Under the pieces are notes generated by a model, which saw only the letters and a program-made list of their open reading frames with translations, was not told the DNA's origin and ran no database searches. From a virus, in the IMG/VR virus record IMGVR_UViG_3300031857_000857, positions 1 through 31,793 of that record: a DNA stretch of 31,793 bases, one strand, 5' to 3'. A program made the position numbers and the translations under genes. Positions 3,658-29,985 of this stretch are shown one piece after another; positions within the stretch are counted from its first letter, which is position 1, and each line of letters begins with the position of its first letter.

Positions 3658-5115
3658 TTAGATTTTACCTCTTAATTCATCAACTTCTTTCTTAAGCTCT
3701 TTAATCGCCTCAATTAAAAGAGGAACTAGTTTGTCGTAATGTACTGTCATGTATTTATTATCGATCGGAGCATCGGCAATTACTTCAGGTAAAATTTCTT
3801 TGACTTGCTGAGCAGAAACACCGACCATTCTTTCATCACCAACATATCCAAGATCTTTTGCAGTTTCGTTAAACTTAAAGAAAAATCCATTGAGTTTCTG
3901 CACTTTATCTAAAGCGCCACCAATATTTCCTTCAATGTTTTTCAATCTTTCATCAGAAACGAATGCGCTAATTTCATTTATTGCATATAGATTGTTAACA
4001 TAAAGATCGCCAGCATAATTTATTCTGGTCGTACCAGATGGATTTGTGGTTCCACCATAAAATTCACCAGCGGCAGAAGTGTGTCCATTATAGGATACAG
4101 CACCAGCAGAGGTGCTTGATGCAGCTCTCGGAATTCCTATTCCTGTTAAATTAGAACCATCTCCATAATGCGTTCCAGAAATTTCTGTGGCTGTTAATCT
4201 TCCAGAGTTGGCGTTGTATGATAATTTTGATGTTGATGCTTTTGCTGTTTGGTCGCTGCCAGTTGCACCAACTAAAACAGGATATAATGGATTGGTTGAT
4301 GTGTCATTGGTTGCGTTGATTACGGTAGATGGTCCAGTTGCGCCTTGAGCGCCAGCTGCTCCTTGTCGACCTTGAAATCCTTGGTGACCTTGAAATCCTT
4401 GATTTCCTTGTGCACCAGCTGCTCCCTGAAATCCTTGATGTCCTTGAGCGCCAGCTGCTCCTTGAAATCCTTGATTTCCTTGTGCACCAGCTGCACCTTG
4501 TACACCTTGAGCACCAGCTGCACCTTGTACACCTTGCGGTCCTTGTGCGCCAGAACCTGGGCTTCCACCACCAGGAGCTCCTTGCGCGCCAACTGCACCT
4601 TGAACGCCTTGTGCGCCAACTGTGCCTTGAACGCCTTGTGCACCAGCTCCACCACTGACTGTAAATGATACGTTAGCATTCCCATTAAGTCCAGAAGTAA
4701 CTGCGACCATTACTGTTGATGTGTTAACAAAATTTAATCTTGAAGCGGTTAATGTTGCGCCATTATTTGCAGATATCATAACTGTATTCGCAGCATTTGA
4801 CAGAGCCTGAGCTATGTTCACACCTGCTAATGTTAATGTTCCAGTAATATTTGCATTTGTTGCTGTAAGATTATTTGTAATGTTTGCATTTGCTGCAATC
4901 AGATTTCCAACTGTTAATGTTTTTTGTACAGTTGCATTACCACTAACCAACAACGCTGTAGAAATATCCGTGTTCGAGAGATAGAGAAGTCCAGCTTCTT
5001 TTTCGTATGTGGTACTTCTTAATTCATTAACAGCATTAATTGTATTGTTCGTGTATATTCGCCACTGATCGAATGTATTTGCTGTTTGTACCTGAGGAAT
5101 ATTTGGAGTCGGCAT
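3658..5115 (-). CDS. Collagen-like tail fibre with S74-type intramolecular chaperone domain
   Basis: A 485-residue fibre protein. Residues 1-155 are rich in Asn/Thr/Ala beta repeats, probably a trimeric shaft. Residues 157-262 are Gly-X-Y triplets (GAQGVQG, GNQGFQG types), interrupted once by GGGSPGS, which should form a collagen-like triple helix. Residues 263-380 form a beta domain. The C-terminus carries a Peptidase_S74/endosialidase-type chaperone: SDERLK at 387-392 holds the Ser-Asp self-cleavage pair, followed by GVSAQQVKEILPE and a final helix KLVPLLIEAIKELKKEVDELR that should trimerise. Known members fold the trimer and then cut themselves off just before the Ser. The ATG overlaps the stop of the preceding 70-codon gene by one base (TAATG), so translation is likely coupled. 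Confidence 0.8.
   Translation of the reverse strand: MPTPNIPQVQTANTFDQWRIYTNNTINAVNELRSTTYEKEAGLLYLSNTDISTALLVSGNATVQKTLTVGNLIAANANITNNLTATNANITGTLTLAGVNIAQALSNAANTVMISANNGATLTASRLNFVNTSTVMVAVTSGLNGNANVSFTVSGGAGAQGVQGTVGAQGVQGAVGAQGAPGGGSPGSGAQGPQGVQGAAGAQGVQGAAGAQGNQGFQGAAGAQGHQGFQGAAGAQGNQGFQGHQGFQGRQGAAGAQGATGPSTVINATNDTSTNPLYPVLVGATGSDQTAKASTSKLSYNANSGRLTATEISGTHYGDGSNLTGIGIPRAASSTSAGAVSYNGHTSAAGEFYGGTTNPSGTTRINYAGDLYVNNLYAINEISAFVSDERLKNIEGNIGGALDKVQKLNGFFFKFNETAKDLGYVGDERMVGVSAQQVKEILPEVIADAPIDNKYMTVHYDKLVPLLIEAIKELKKEVDELRGKI
4330..4647 (-). repeat. Collagen-like Gly-X-Y tandem repeat region
   Basis: Imperfect nucleotide repeats built from 9-nt units (three codons Gly-X-Y), grouped into longer units of about 45-57 nt that end in GAAGAQG or GFQG in the protein. 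Blocks around 4371-4500 are almost identical to each other, which suggests recent duplication or slippage. The units are contiguous and in frame, with no spacers, so this is a coding repeat and not a CRISPR array. Confidence 0.8.
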
Positions 5116-24948: not shown

Positions 24949-25650
24949 ATGGCATTCAACATACAAAACTTCATTAGCCATATTGGTAAATATAACGAAC
25001 TTGCTCACGCAAGTCGATTTGAAGTTAGAATACCACTTCCAAGTTCATTGAAGGGCAGTTCATTCGGAACCAGAGAACTGTCTTTTCAGTGTGAAGGCGC
25101 TGAGTTTCCTGGTCGAAACATTTCTATGATTGAATACAGACATCATGCATTTACGCAACGTGTTCCTCATGTTCTGAATTACACTGATGTGAATTTGGTT
25201 TTTATGTGCAACAATCAATTCCTGGAAAAGAAATTTTTTGATTCATGGATGAACTCTATGATTCCAAGTGCCAGTGGAATAGTACAATATTTTCGCAGTG
25301 CATCTGGTGAGAATAATTTTTCATCTGAAATTGTCATTAGACAATATGACGGTCGAGGAAAAGAAGGCGCTGCTCAACTAGATTCCCTTCCAATATATGG
25401 TGTCAAATTGATTGATGCAATTCCAAGTTCTGTCGCCCCACTATCATTAAGTTGGACAGACGAAAGCTATCACAGATTACAAGTCAGTTTCACGTTCAAG
25501 AAAGCAATCCCCTTATCTTATAGAAGAAGTTTTGAGAGTGGATATAATAAAGAGGCGACAGAAGAAGCAGTTTCTACTGCGATTGGTGATTTTCTTACAG
25601 GCAATAGAACCCCATCACCATATAACCCATTTAACATTAGCCTAGATTAA
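24949..25650 (+). CDS. Tail-tube-fold protein, gp54-like tube initiator
   Basis: A 233-residue protein with the tail tube pattern of gp19 and its paralogue gp54: RFEVRIPLPS, then ELSFQCEGAEFPGRNI (gp19 has FTFQCKATALPAG), NLVFMCNNQFLEKKFFDSWM, EIVIRQYDG and a final IDAIPSSVAPLSLSWTDESYHRLQVSFTFK (gp19 has LWPTNVGELQLDWDSNNEIQTFEVTLAL). It is longer than gp19 (163) and shorter than T4 gp54 (320). Its place before the tape measure and close to gp48 favours a baseplate-end tube initiator; the major tube protein itself would be expected next to the sheath gene elsewhere. An AGGAAG ribosome-binding site lies about 9 nt before the ATG. Confidence 0.7.
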   Translation: MAFNIQNFISHIGKYNELAHASRFEVRIPLPSSLKGSSFGTRELSFQCEGAEFPGRNISMIEYRHHAFTQRVPHVLNYTDVNLVFMCNNQFLEKKFFDSWMNSMIPSASGIVQYFRSASGENNFSSEIVIRQYDGRGKEGAAQLDSLPIYGVKLIDAIPSSVAPLSLSWTDESYHRLQVSFTFKKAIPLSYRRSFESGYNKEATEEAVSTAIGDFLTGNRTPSPYNPFNISLD

Positions 25651-25666
25651 ACATACTGGAGTAGTT

Positions 25667-26389
25667 ATGGCATTACCGAAATTAGATTATCCAACATTTG
25701 AAATACCTGGCGTTGAAGTAAAAGGATCGCCAGTAAAGTTCAGACCATTTTTAGTCAAAGAACAAAAAATGCTGATGATGGCAGTTCAGTCAAAAGAAAT
25801 TTCTGAGGTCGTCGACAGCATCAAACAAATCATAAGAAACTGTTGCATCGATGATATTGATGTTGATACGTTATCGTTGTCGCAGTTAGAATTAATATTC
25901 ATATATCTCAGAGCGAAATCAGTCAGCGAGGTTATTAATTTAGTTTATAGATGCAATAACACTCTTGAAGACGAAAATAGATGCAACATGATCATTAATG
26001 TTGACGTTGATCTTTTAAAAGACGTCGAATCCAAGTCGAATCAAAAATCAAATTTGATTTGGTTAAATGATGCAATTGCAATTAAGATGAGAAATCCAAA
26101 TTTAGAAATTACGAACTTAATCAATCAAGATAATCTTGAATTAGCTGATCTCGTTATTGCAAAATGCATTGAACAAATTATTGAAGGCGATGAAGTTCAT
26201 GACGCAGATACAGTGAATGAGAAAGAATTAATCGAATTCGTTTCTCAAATAAGATCAAACGATTATGAAAAGATGTGGGAATTTGTTAAAAATGCACCGA
26301 CTATAAAGTATGAAAAAGTTCATAAGTGCCCTAGATGCGATTATGAACATACAATTAAGTTGGAGGGACTTGCCGATTTTTTTTCCTGA
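25667..26389 (+). CDS. gp26: Baseplate hub/tail assembly chaperone gp26 (T4_baseplate family)
   Basis: A 240-residue protein of the T4 gp26-type family. The start MALPKLDYPTFEIPGVEVKG followed by KFRPFLVKEQKMLMMA is the typical family opening. The body is helical, and a CPRCDYEH motif near the end together with C96/C104-type cysteines suggests a possible small metal site. gp26 is needed for hub assembly but is not a major virion component, which agrees with a chaperone role. It lies directly before the tape measure gene. The last codons are GAT TTT TTT TCC TGA; the T8 run provides a slippery site for -1 frameshifting into the next frame. GGAG is 7 nt before the ATG. Confidence 0.75.
   Translation: MALPKLDYPTFEIPGVEVKGSPVKFRPFLVKEQKMLMMAVQSKEISEVVDSIKQIIRNCCIDDIDVDTLSLSQLELIFIYLRAKSVSEVINLVYRCNNTLEDENRCNMIINVDVDLLKDVESKSNQKSNLIWLNDAIAIKMRNPNLEITNLINQDNLELADLVIAKCIEQIIEGDEVHDADTVNEKELIEFVSQIRSNDYEKMWEFVKNAPTIKYEKVHKCPRCDYEHTIKLEGLADFFS
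26377..26383 (+). other. Candidate -1 ribosomal frameshift slippery site (T TTT TTT)
   Basis: Seven of the eight consecutive T's form a canonical X-XXY-YYZ heptamer in phase with the gp26 frame (T of GAT, then TTT TTT), 3 nt before the TCC TGA end. Slipping back one base gives TTC CTG AGC and continues without a stop to 26595. Confidence 0.65.
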
Positions 26390-26595
26390 GCTTTAGTAAT
26401 GATTGTTTGATAAAATATTATCAAACAAATTTTGATTTGATTCATAAACATAAGTATTCATTGACTGAACTTGAAAATATGATTCCTTGGGAACGTGACA
26501 TTTACATAAATTTGTTAATTCAACATATAAAAGAAGAGAATGAGAAAATTAAACTAAGAAATCAACAAATAAGAGCAGCGAGAAGTAGAAAGTAA
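26383..26595 (+). CDS. -1 frame extension of gp26 (gpT-like C-terminal domain)
   Basis: This frame is open from 26359 to the stop at 26593-26595. From the proposed slip it adds 70 residues (FLSFSNDCLIKYYQ... to ...RAARSRK), giving a 309-residue fusion with gp26. The added part contains HKHKYSLTELENMIPWERDI and a charged helix IKEENEKIKLRNQQIRAARS. If translated independently it would have to start at a TTG at 26407 with no Shine-Dalgarno sequence; its first ATG is 26 codons in. In lambda and many long-tailed phages the analogous gpG/gpGT chaperone pair precedes the tape measure gene, which is the case here (stop overlaps the next ATG, TAATG). Confidence 0.65.
   Translation, partial: FLSFSNDCLIKYYQTNFDLIHKHKYSLTELENMIPWERDIYINLLIQHIKEENEKIKLRNQQIRAARSRK
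26403..26428 (+). other. Perfect 11-bp hairpin downstream of the slippery site
   Basis: TTGTTTGATAA (26403-26413) pairs perfectly with TTATCAAACAA (26418-26428) around a 4-nt loop AATA. No T-run follows, so it is not a standard terminator. It starts 20 nt after the slippery heptamer, longer than the usual 5-9 nt for stimulatory structures. Confidence 0.6.
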
Positions 26596-29477
26596 TGGCA
26601 AGAAGAAGACCTAGAACGGGTTCCCTCAGATCAGTCATGTCTAATCTCCCAGGAACATCTGATCCTCTCAATGACAGAATCGATTCTCTCGTTGAGAACA
26701 GACGGAGGGCGAAAGAAGAAGCTGCTCTAAAGTATGGTGGTGGATTTGGTGGTAGAATTCTTTATGGAATGGCTGAATCCGTTTTTGGCGAAAGAGTAGC
26801 TTCAAAGATCAATACAGCATCTAGAGACAGATCACAAACACAAAAAGCATACTCTGAACTGTATAACCCCTCTGAGCAAATGACAAGAGGGAAAGGAGGA
26901 TCGGCTGTTCGAGAGATTAAACCAATTTTAGAAAAGATCAACAATAAAGTTGATTATCTTGCTTCAAAGATTGAAAAGATTGATGCCAGACTTAGCGCCA
27001 AGAACATTACAATTGGTAAAGGTGACAAACAACAAACTTTCAGATACGACCCATTAGCACCAGAAGGAAAGCAAGTAACAGCGGCAACTGCATCTGGTAA
27101 GTCTGGAAGATTCGCATCAAAAGCAGAATCAGCATCTGTATTGTCTAAAGCGGCATATCTTGGGAATCAAGAATACCAAATGCCACAAACTTCGACTAGA
27201 GTTTCACAAAATGATGCGAAACAGATTATAGAACAACTGAAAAAAGACTTGACAAAGAGTGGTGGTAGAGAAACTCAAAGTCAAATTGCAGCTGCAGAAG
27301 ATAGGAAAGACTATGCTGCAGGTGAAAAAGATGAACGAAATCAAGAGTATCAAGAAGACGTAATTAAAAAACTAGACGAAATATTAGAAAAAATAGAAGA
27401 TGGTGGTGGAGCTTTAGAAGCTCTACTTGGTGGAGCTGCTGGAGCTGCTGGAGCTGCTGGTCTTGCTCGACTTCTACCAATGTTGGCACCACTTCTTATG
27501 AATCCTTATGTATTAGGAGCCATAGGAATAGCAGGAGTTTTATTTGCAGGATATAAAGGCATAGAAAAAGCTCTTGAGGATGGTAAGATTGATAAAAAAC
27601 AAACTACTGAATCTGGTAGAACTGAAGAAGGTAAAGAAAAATCAGTAGATGTAGTAGAGGCTGGCAGCCAGTATGTTCCACAAATGCCAATGCCTGGTAT
27701 GCCTGTTGGGGTTGGATTTGGTGGAACAAATGTTCCAGATAAATTTGAATTGCCAAAAGATGAAAAAACTGTTGTAGAAACCTATTATGATGGAGATGAG
27801 TTGATTGGTTATTTGTCAACTGATGGTAAACTATATGTTGCTCAGGGTAAAAAAGAAGAAGTCTTAGAAAGATATAGAAAGGGTGATGCAACGTCCGTAA
27901 CAGTTGCCAGTGGGAAAATGCCTGACATCCCAAGGCAAGAAACAACTGGAGCACCATCACCATCATCTGATAGTTCTGAACTTCCAGAAGGATCGATGCC
28001 CATACGAAACGCTAATAACGAAGTGGTTGGTTATCGTAAAGAAGGTGGAGGTTATGAAGCATTACCAGGTAGAGAAAAGGAATTAGAAGAACTATCAAAA
28101 GGAGCAAATCAACTTAATCGTGAAATGCGGGAATCTATAGGCAAATCAACATCGGCAACAGCACCAGCGCCAACATCAAAACCAGCAGCAGAAATAGACC
28201 CTCGCTTCGAATCAATGCGAAGGGATTCAGCCCGAAGTGCTGCCGCTACTGAAAAAACAATTCAGATGGCTGAAGAACTGGCTGATAAAATGGGAATACC
28301 AAACGACGGTAAACTTGAGATTGAAGCAGGCGGATTCCCAAGTCAGAGGTATATTAAATCTATTAATGGGCAAACTGTTCCTTTAGAATTATATACGCCT
28401 GAGCAGCTCGAATATAAAAAATCAGATGATCGGTACAATGCACAAAAAGCAGCAGCAGAGCAAGGGCGACCGATACCACAAACACAACCAACAGGATCTA
28501 CAGGCGAAAGTGAAGAACAAATTGAATTTTTCGCAAAAGGTGGACCAGTCGAAGAAGGGAAAAAGATTGTTGTTGGTGAAGAAGGTCCAGAAGCATTTTT
28601 TGATAGTAAAGAAATAGAAAATTATAGTGATTATCAAAATGCTGACACAAAAGGCAAATTAGCAATGGTTCGAGATCTTATTTCATCTGACATTGAAAGA
28701 GCCGCAAGCATAGCTGGTGTTTCGCTATACGAAGGTGGGTGGACCGAAAAAGGAGATGATCCGTTACTGTACGGATTGAGATCGTCGAAAGGCGACTCAA
28801 CAGGAGGATTCTATGATCTTTTTAAAAACAACCCAGATTTTACTGAAAAATTAAATGAATTAAAAGAAACAGGCGCATCAATAGAAGAAATCCGCAATGA
28901 ATATATTGCAATGAAACTCGCAACGCCAGCAGCAAGAAGAAGATTAATTAGGTCCTATGGTTCGATGAAAGCTGGTGATGATTACACATGGAGCAATGAA
29001 TGGTATGAAGATAGTGGAACTAAACCAAGAGCAAAAGGCGGACCAGTAGAAGATGGCAGTGACTATCTCGTAGGCGAACAAGGTCCAGAATTAATGATTC
29101 CTAAGGAAGATGGATTCATTATACCAGCGAAAGAAACTAAAATGTTGCTTAACGGCACCAGAGCACGTGGTGGGCGAGTTGAGAATTCATTGAAGTATCT
29201 TGTCGGAGAAGAAGGACCAGAACTCAATATTCCTAATTTTGGCGATACTCTACGCGAAGTTCAAAATCAACTCGAAATGAGTGAAGAAGAAAATAGAACT
29301 GCATTGGAAACCGCATCACCTGTGATTAACAATATTGACAGTAGAACGATCAATAACGTCGCACCAAGTTCAGCGCCACCACCGCCAATGACAGTTAATT
29401 CAAGAAATGACGAAACTTCTTATGCAGATATTGCTGCAAGAATATTCTCGCATCCAGCAAAACATCCAATAGCATAG
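26595..29477 (+). CDS. Tail tape measure protein (gp29 functional counterpart)
   Basis: A 960-residue protein. Residues 1-100 are basic; 104-135 form a coiled coil (REIKPILEKINNKVDYLASK); 205-270 are helical and charged. Residues 272-325 are Gly/Ala-rich and hydrophobic (LARLLPMLAPLL, then VLGAIGIAGVLFAGY), a membrane-inserting candidate. Residues 397-430 and 470-503 are an internal duplication. Three units of the GG-x-V-x-x-G-x-x-Y-L-V-G-E-x-G-P-E-L type occur at 649-666, 815-834 and 859-877, a motif common in tape measure proteins of siphoviruses and other phages. An unrecognised domain of about 125 residues (680-805) lies between the first and second units. Tape measures set tail length and are ejected first. 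Position after the chaperone pair supports this; similarity to T4 gp29 (590 residues) was not seen. Confidence 0.75.
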   Translation: MARRRPRTGSLRSVMSNLPGTSDPLNDRIDSLVENRRRAKEEAALKYGGGFGGRILYGMAESVFGERVASKINTASRDRSQTQKAYSELYNPSEQMTRGKGGSAVREIKPILEKINNKVDYLASKIEKIDARLSAKNITIGKGDKQQTFRYDPLAPEGKQVTAATASGKSGRFASKAESASVLSKAAYLGNQEYQMPQTSTRVSQNDAKQIIEQLKKDLTKSGGRETQSQIAAAEDRKDYAAGEKDERNQEYQEDVIKKLDEILEKIEDGGGALEALLGGAAGAAGAAGLARLLPMLAPLLMNPYVLGAIGIAGVLFAGYKGIEKALEDGKIDKKQTTESGRTEEGKEKSVDVVEAGSQYVPQMPMPGMPVGVGFGGTNVPDKFELPKDEKTVVETYYDGDELIGYLSTDGKLYVAQGKKEEVLERYRKGDATSVTVASGKMPDIPRQETTGAPSPSSDSSELPEGSMPIRNANNEVVGYRKEGGGYEALPGREKELEELSKGANQLNREMRESIGKSTSATAPAPTSKPAAEIDPRFESMRRDSARSAAATEKTIQMAEELADKMGIPNDGKLEIEAGGFPSQRYIKSINGQTVPLELYTPEQLEYKKSDDRYNAQKAAAEQGRPIPQTQPTGSTGESEEQIEFFAKGGPVEEGKKIVVGEEGPEAFFDSKEIENYSDYQNADTKGKLAMVRDLISSDIERAASIAGVSLYEGGWTEKGDDPLLYGLRSSKGDSTGGFYDLFKNNPDFTEKLNELKETGASIEEIRNEYIAMKLATPAARRRLIRSYGSMKAGDDYTWSNEWYEDSGTKPRAKGGPVEDGSDYLVGEQGPELMIPKEDGFIIPAKETKMLLNGTRARGGRVENSLKYLVGEEGPELNIPNFGDTLREVQNQLEMSEEENRTALETASPVINNIDSRTINNVAPSSAPPPPMTVNSRNDETSYADIAARIFSHPAKHPIA
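27432..27460 (+). repeat. Short tandem repeat (9-nt unit, 3 copies) in the tape measure gene
   Basis: The unit ggagctgct is repeated three times, coding for GAA-GAA-GAA in the hydrophobic Gly/Ala segment. In-frame slippage would lengthen or shorten this segment by three residues. Confidence 0.6.
27783..28103 (+). repeat. Internal duplication of a ~33-residue module in the tape measure
   Basis: Residues 397-430 (YYDGDELIGYLSTDG, KLYVAQGKKEEVLERYRKG) and 470-503 (IRNANNEVVGYRKEGG, GYEALPGREKELEELSKG) follow the same pattern: an N/D-x-x-x-V/I-G-Y turn, a G-x-Y strand, then a charged helix ending in K-G. Confidence 0.5.
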
Positions 29478-29503
29478 CAACTGGGCATTAAAATGCCCAG
29501 TTG
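29478..29503. terminator. Perfect 11-bp hairpin at the convergent junction
   Basis: CAACTGGGCAT (29478-29488) pairs with ATGCCCAGTTG (29493-29503) around TAAA. The hairpin starts immediately after the tape measure stop and overlaps the last codons of the PagL-like gene on the other strand. It is palindromic, so it forms in both transcripts and may act as a shared end point. No T-run follows on either strand, so it is either a non-canonical terminator or an RNA 3'-end stabiliser. Confidence 0.55.
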
Positions 29504-29985
29504 AATCCTACGAACACTCTGTCAATACCATCATTAATATCCGCACGTTCTGCGGTTGAGTTATGAATCCATGCAACCTCAACCTCAGTTCGATTAGACA
29601 ATCTCCAAAGCAATCCAGCACTCAAGTGAAACGTCAATGTGTCACTTACGAGTGGTCGATTATTTTGCGTCAACTCATCATCAGTGTACATAGCACCGAA
29701 CTCTAGGAATGGGTGAACTTTCCAGTCACCAACATGAACACGTCGAGCGAATGTGAATCCCCAAATATCATTATAGTTTTCACCGCCAAACTTTTCAGCT
29801 CTGGCATACCAATCTCCATACGATACTCCAAGCCTTTGGGTTATCAATTCGCTAGACTTCAATGTTCCACCCGTAAGTCCTATGGAAACTTTTGGCTCTT
29901 TGGCTTCAGCTGCAAAAGCTGCAACAAGAAGAATTAAAAACACCACAACTATCCATAAAACTTTTGAGCGAAATATTGCGTTCAT
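29488..29985 (-). CDS. PagL-like lipid A 3-O-deacylase candidate (secreted outer membrane barrel)
   Basis: A 165-residue protein with a clear signal sequence (basic start, hydrophobic VLWIVVVFLILLVAAFA, cleavage near AEA at ~28). The rest is made of alternating short strands typical of a small eight-stranded outer membrane beta barrel and ends with FNWAF, with the C-terminal Phe expected for barrel insertion. The motif AWIHNSTAE (H141, S143) resembles the H-x-S catalytic pair of PagL/acyloxyacyl hydrolase-like lipid A deacylases; the third catalytic acid is not clearly placed. Such an enzyme would remodel lipid A in the host outer membrane. AGGAG is 8 nt before the ATG. It follows the FN3 gene by 12 nt, probably on the gp32 transcript. 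Confidence 0.6.
   Translation of the reverse strand: MNAIFRSKVLWIVVVFLILLVAAFAAEAKEPKVSIGLTGGTLKSSELITQRLGVSYGDWYARAEKFGGENYNDIWGFTFARRVHVGDWKVHPFLEFGAMYTDDELTQNNRPLVSDTLTFHLSAGLLWRLSNRTEVEVAWIHNSTAERADINDGIDRVFVGFNWAF

Follow-up and report, generated by a model that had tools for sequence, protein, structure and literature searches.

A −1 slippery heptamer and an internal Shine-Dalgarno-like element at the gp26/gp51 junction of a T4-like phage: a predicted tail assembly chaperone frameshift conserved among relatives

The window (the whole stretch of DNA analysed, a virus record of 31,793 bases) is a fragment of a T4-like phage, in which T4_tail_cap and gp32-like matches were also found. Two overlapping open reading frames separate the tail tube gene from the tape-measure-like gene, the arrangement of the lambda-type G/GT genes (Table 1). 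The 0-frame protein belongs by sequence to the T4-like gp26/gp51 chaperone family, matching PF12322 (T4_baseplate; E 5.8e-47, 160.6 bits, cut-off 24.5) and phrog_150 (E 9.5e-49). The peptide encoded in the −1 frame matched phrog_634 (E 1e-25), which is annotated as "baseplate hub assembly catalyst" and represents gp51, and covered phrog_150 columns 232-281, i.e., the last 50 columns, placing the gp51 C-terminal domain in register after the end of gp26. The same profile, phrog_634, was matched by all of the sampled −1-frame peptides (46/46, the window's own among them). The tape measure assignment was made from weak profile matches and gene position, the match to phrog_5062 (E 3.9e-7) covering residues 812-850 only. 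In the relatives with enough sequence, a long ORF in the tape-measure position followed the −1 frame in 61/61 cases, with a median gap of 3 nt from the −1-frame stop to that ORF. A PagL-like lipid A 3-O-deacylase (29488-29985, minus strand; PF09411, E 2e-9) adjoins the tape-measure-like gene. Elsewhere in the window, two 2OG-Fe(II) oxygenase ORFs (493-1101 and 1700-2269) lie near the gene of a protein of 485 aa that combines collagen repeats with an endosialidase-type chaperone domain at its C-terminus (3658-5115, minus strand); that these oxygenases hydroxylate the collagen-like fibre is a tempting, speculative idea.

Table 1. Features of the gp26/gp51 region of the window.
Feature	Position	Strand	Remarks
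Tail tube protein gene	24949..25650	+	Directly upstream of gp26; phrog_45, E 5.8e-28
gp26-like tail assembly chaperone, predicted short form (TAC-N / gpG-like)	25667..26389	+	240 aa; PF12322/phrog_150
SD-like GGAGGG inside gp26, proposed frameshift stimulator	26362..26367	+	9 nt upstream of heptamer
Slippery heptamer T TTT TTT	26377..26383	+	In phase, one codon before TGA
−1 frame extension, gp51 / T-like domain	26383..26595	+	70 residues, counted from shift to stop codon (26593-26595)
Possible downstream hairpin TTGTTTGATAA-AATA-TTATCAAACAA	26398..26425 (approximate)	+	Optional stimulator; z -3.1 in a 45-nt window
Tape-measure-like ORF	26595..29477	+	960 aa; weak phrog tape-measure matches and position

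The first-pass annotation had proposed a programmed −1 frameshift at the end of gp26, and its description of the site agreed with a direct re-reading of the letters. The gene ends in GAT TTT TTT TCC TGA, with the TGA at 26387-26389 and a T8 run at 26377-26384 that contains the in-phase heptamer. From 26359 onwards the −1 frame is free of stops until its TAA, which overlaps the ATG of the tape-measure-like ORF by one base at 26595, as had been claimed for the end of this frame. A tandem slip on the heptamer was computed to join 239 residues to the 70 of the extension, giving the proposed fusion of 309 residues, for which the predicted shift-spanning peptide is LADFFFLSFSND. The length of the T8 run is supported by two independent relatives from other metagenomes (L159 and L163, 65% identity), since both carry the identical GA-T8-CC.

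Conservation of the junction was evaluated in two sets of relatives. The first, gathered by gp26 patterns that avoid the junction, comprised 84 loci (80 contigs together with S-PM2, P-SSM4, HTVC008M and the window). All of them (84/84) had T TTT TT[C/T/A] in phase, 0-3 codons ahead of the gp26 stop, and the gp51 frame was at −1 wherever the sequence reached far enough. In the second set, seeded by distant proteins, T TTT TTN with gp51 in the −1 frame was present in 73 of 79 loci. The two sets share some contigs and close copies, an overlap that is removed by clustering; after pooling with the isolates, 168 loci, which form 103 clusters below 70% identity, retained the in-phase heptamer together with the −1-frame gp51. 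The signal spans phages of Sinorhizobium, Rhizobium, Pseudomonas, Caulobacter, Acinetobacter and Stenotrophomonas, and is also found in the Straboviridae ValKK3, avDM12 and S13, members of T4's own family. Under a codon-usage null, in which the encoded residues were fixed and the genes' own codon usage was applied, the chance of T TTT in every locus was about 10^-29 for 80 clusters below 90% identity and about 10^-11 for 31 clusters below 50% identity, clusters being taken as independent although relatives are not fully so; the heptamer is therefore not accidental. In 27 independent pairs, the first seven codons past the heptamer show the substitution pattern of −1-frame codons, with 39/27/59 differences at codon positions 1/2/3, and across the −1 domain the window differs from L159 at 10/8/22 sites at codon positions 1/2/3. 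Relatives with a normal ATG and Shine-Dalgarno sequence for the small frame and with no T-run were sought as a case against the proposal, which stood at the 168 loci.

The same comparison bears on two explanations that dispense with ribosomal slippage. According to the first, an assembly or sequencing error has broken the frame of what is really a single in-frame ORF. Homopolymer runs are error-prone, and Menderavirus IME-SM1 (L089, NC_054952) differs by one T in this very run from the 99%-identical Marzo (L196, MZ326868). The recurrence of the same-frame break in 168 contigs and isolates, and the T8 shared by the two 65% relatives, leave this explanation barely conceivable for the window, where recurrence of the break effectively refutes it. 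IME-SM1 itself, in which the missing T makes gp26 a 280-aa ORF, was considered as a +1-frame variant and rejected because its run is one T short of that of Marzo; the T at the frameshift site was probably lost by a sequencing error. According to the second explanation, the long form arises by transcriptional slippage on T8, which has the 8-base homopolymer of the window in its favour. In most relatives, however, the run is no longer than T6, with C, A or G next and the phase unchanged (TTTTTTC in 53 of the 103 clusters, TTTTTTA in 5 and TTTTTTG in 1), and T6 is short for polymerase slippage. The phase of the heptamer and the spacing of the Shine-Dalgarno-like (SD-like) element described below suit ribosomes and not RNA polymerase, so that transcriptional slippage is highly improbable.

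The absence of a credible −1-frame start in the window was likewise borne out, the sole early start-like codon being TTG 26407, which lacks a Shine-Dalgarno sequence. Separate initiation at this codon was ruled out because it is CTG in the nearest relatives, L159 and L163. More generally, a −1-frame start codon within 6 nt of the heptamer was found in 0/103 clusters; in the stretch from the heptamer to the conserved part of the domain, ATG was absent in 66/81 loci and ATG, GTG or TTG were all absent in 35/81, an early ATG being present in the −1 frame of 15/81. These counts weigh against gp51 being a separate, unfused small protein started by termination-reinitiation, whether at the stop of gp26 or at TTG 26407. 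In favour of such a protein are an ATG that overlaps the gp26 stop or lies just past it in ValKK3 (TAATG), in Cr30 (TGATG) and in 7/73 second-set heptamer loci, as well as the annotation of a separate gp51 in S-PM2 and P-SSM4. In the relatives with TAATG or TGATG, slippage could be supplemented or supplanted by coupled reinitiation. Reinitiation nevertheless leaves unexplained both the conserved in-phase T TTT TTN and the SD-like element, whose spacing reaches no start codon, and for the window a separate gp51 is considered very unlikely. In two Straboviridae, Aeromonas phage avDM12 (L088, 3257-3524) and Cronobacter phage S13 (L098, 3170-3332), the gp51 domain is unannotated and no ordinary start codon of the −1 frame occurs close to the end of gp26.

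A second component of the site, overlooked in the earlier reading, emerged when 7-mers were scanned against the anti-Shine-Dalgarno sequence. The GGAGGG inside gp26 of the window forms a duplex of -9.8 kcal/mol with the anti-SD sequence. Among the relatives, a single sharp SD-like peak was located at positions -15 to -9 relative to the heptamer (mean -6.1 kcal/mol versus +0.7 kcal/mol for the gene background), with energies below -5 kcal/mol in 71% of clusters, compared with 1.4% of the background. An element at or below -3.5 kcal/mol was present at the site in 84/103 clusters, against 6.2% of control positions, and absent in 19/103. Part of the signal is owed to a Leu-Glu-Gly motif. At the Glu codon of the site, GAG is preferred over GAA (39:22), whereas gene bodies use 20% GAG, and the element is retained where other residues are encoded (loci with AAG GGT, AGG GGC and CAA GGG). 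The possible hairpin of the window sits about 15-20 nt downstream of the heptamer. Downstream structure was enriched in the set (z<-2 in 18% versus 2% of controls), but a conserved stem-loop as a universal part of the signal was dropped, its place and pairing differing among loci. A trade-off between the SD-like element and downstream structure (Mann-Whitney p 0.054) is not claimed.

Six loci of the second set (L112-L117), all near Ackermannviridae, were without T TTT TTN and carried N GTT TTN before the stop, while Kuttervirus and relatives carried ATT TTC before the gp26 stop. Some of the Ackermannviridae-type variants (L112-L117, L092, L090 and L192-L194) showed a TAATG overlap and others had no ATG. 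The site of phiMAM1 is GGTTTTC, which we take to be a site of the T7 gene 10 type. The chaperone pair of these phages may use another or weaker decoding trick.

Both T4 gp26 and T4 gp51 fall in PF12322 and are paralogues (blastp E 3e-6). The former terminates where the profile places the shift site (phrog_150 235/282, ...RGLKEFFELL), whereas the latter runs in frame past this position to phrog_150 280/282 and matches phrog_634. Since gp26 stops where the shift would occur and gp51 continues through the domain, the profile positions identify T4 gp26 as the counterpart of the short form and gp51 as that of the long form, which T4 makes from two genes without a shift. In the tree, the T4-type gp26, the T4-type gp51 and the shifted rows grouped apart, on branches too long to fix the order of events or the root. 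The gp51 and gp26 paralogues of RB43 (L097, 2501-3794) are in tandem with an 8 nt overlap, while the T4 pair is divergent; the tandem pair is a possible intermediate of a gene split. The T4 proteins have been listed as hub assembly chaperones, gp51 being essential, with its function given as unknown; gp51 is reported to be required yet missing from the particle, and the presence of gp26 is contested (PMC3004832). In a 2016 review (PMC5009743), the frameshift of tail chaperones is called conserved and T4 the exception. The shift site is present in its family members ValKK3, avDM12 and S13.

The AlphaFold2 model of the window gp26 (pLDDT 92) was compared with PDB chains by VIA-align. The top match was 2OB9, the HK97 tail assembly chaperone (Z 6.9, 83 residues), followed by 3KLU, B. 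subtilis YqbN (Z 6.8, 85 residues), the next row being at 4.8. Both proteins have been treated as tail assembly chaperones (PMC9603447). The matches cover gp26 residues 1-88 with 7-8% identity over 83-85 residues, and with Z below 8 and Foldseek E values of 2.4-2.9, which are not significant, the closeness of the predicted N-terminal fold to the HK97 and YqbN chaperones is supportive rather than proof. For the T4-type gp51 model, these two chaperones were not among the PDB matches listed; its best match, C1QBP (Z 5.1), was unconvincing.

Taken from sequence comparison, the gp26 of the window is very probably a tail assembly chaperone whose −1 slip on T TTT TTT yields a 309-residue long form with the gp51 domain. 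The T4-like gpG/gpGT-like pair put forward in the first-pass annotation is thus supported by the conservation of the heptamer, the absent starts and the chaperone-like gp26 model. Most ribosomes would stop at the TGA and release the 240-residue short form. Pairing of 16S rRNA with the internal GGAGGG would slow a minority, which would then slip by −1 on the heptamer and produce the long form. By analogy with lambda gpG/gpGT, the tape-measure protein would be covered by the part common to the two forms, and the extension would bring in subunits of the tail tube or hub, with both forms departing before the tail is completed.

A broader reading, whose chances we put as evenly balanced, is that the shift of the T4 superfamily is a two-part signal (T-run and SD-like stimulator) that has been held across the radiation and that lineages leave by different routes. 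One route would be gene splitting (T4 26/51, with RB43 in tandem). Ackermannviridae and their kin would have turned to a weaker site (NGTTTTY/NATTTTY) or to an overlap of stop and start. A third route would be to lose the SD-like element, perhaps with compensation by stronger structure downstream, a compensation that is only suggestive at the p value given above. The gp26 and gp51 proteins align as the short and the long product of a single frameshifted gene in marine and other T4-like phages. With the two-part signal present in more than 100 diverged clusters, synonymous mutation offers a direct test of the short-to-long ratio.

Set beside known systems, the window resembles lambda gpG/gpGT in its layout and in its predicted shift, by which a −1 slip close to the 3' end of the first ORF gives a short and a long form just ahead of the tape measure gene; the lambda slippery sequence differs from that of the window. 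In the −1 frameshift of E. coli dnaX, a slippery heptamer is stimulated by an SD-like element that lies upstream within the gene. The window likewise has both, its SD-like element lying 9 nt upstream of the heptamer, close to the spacing of about 10 nt of the dnaX type, but it has a T-run in place of A AAA AAG and, among its relatives, no consistently placed downstream stem-loop. Compared with the HK97 (2OB9) and YqbN (3KLU) chaperones, the window gp26 has about 150 further residues. With T4 the relation is one of homology, the window gp26 sharing PF12322 and phrog_150 with both T4 proteins and its −1 domain sharing phrog_634 with the C-terminus of T4 gp51; T4 has two genes and no shift, whereas the window has one gene with a predicted shift. 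Vladimirov, Gautam and Davidson (2022, Virology 566:9-15) are cited for short and fused long chaperone genes in T4-like phages in the accessible part of PMC10885494, and for poly-T −1 slippery sequences in such genes in that of a 2025 paper (PMC12846349). Because gp26 and gp51 of T4 were earlier recognised as tail assembly chaperones, and poly-T −1 sites were reported for T4-like phages, the window is a divergent example of an already reported type of frameshift, and novelty is limited by the publication of the core idea in 2022. A conserved SD-like stimulator is not mentioned in the accessible parts of PMC10885494 and PMC12846349, and no cyanophage-specific report of this shift was found in a literature search covering few subscription papers. 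The chaperones of Vandenendeviridae and Andersonviridae (PMC12846349) resemble the window in their conserved T-rich −1 site between a chaperone ORF and the tape measure gene, and differ in their motif (GTTTTT) and in belonging to other phage families.
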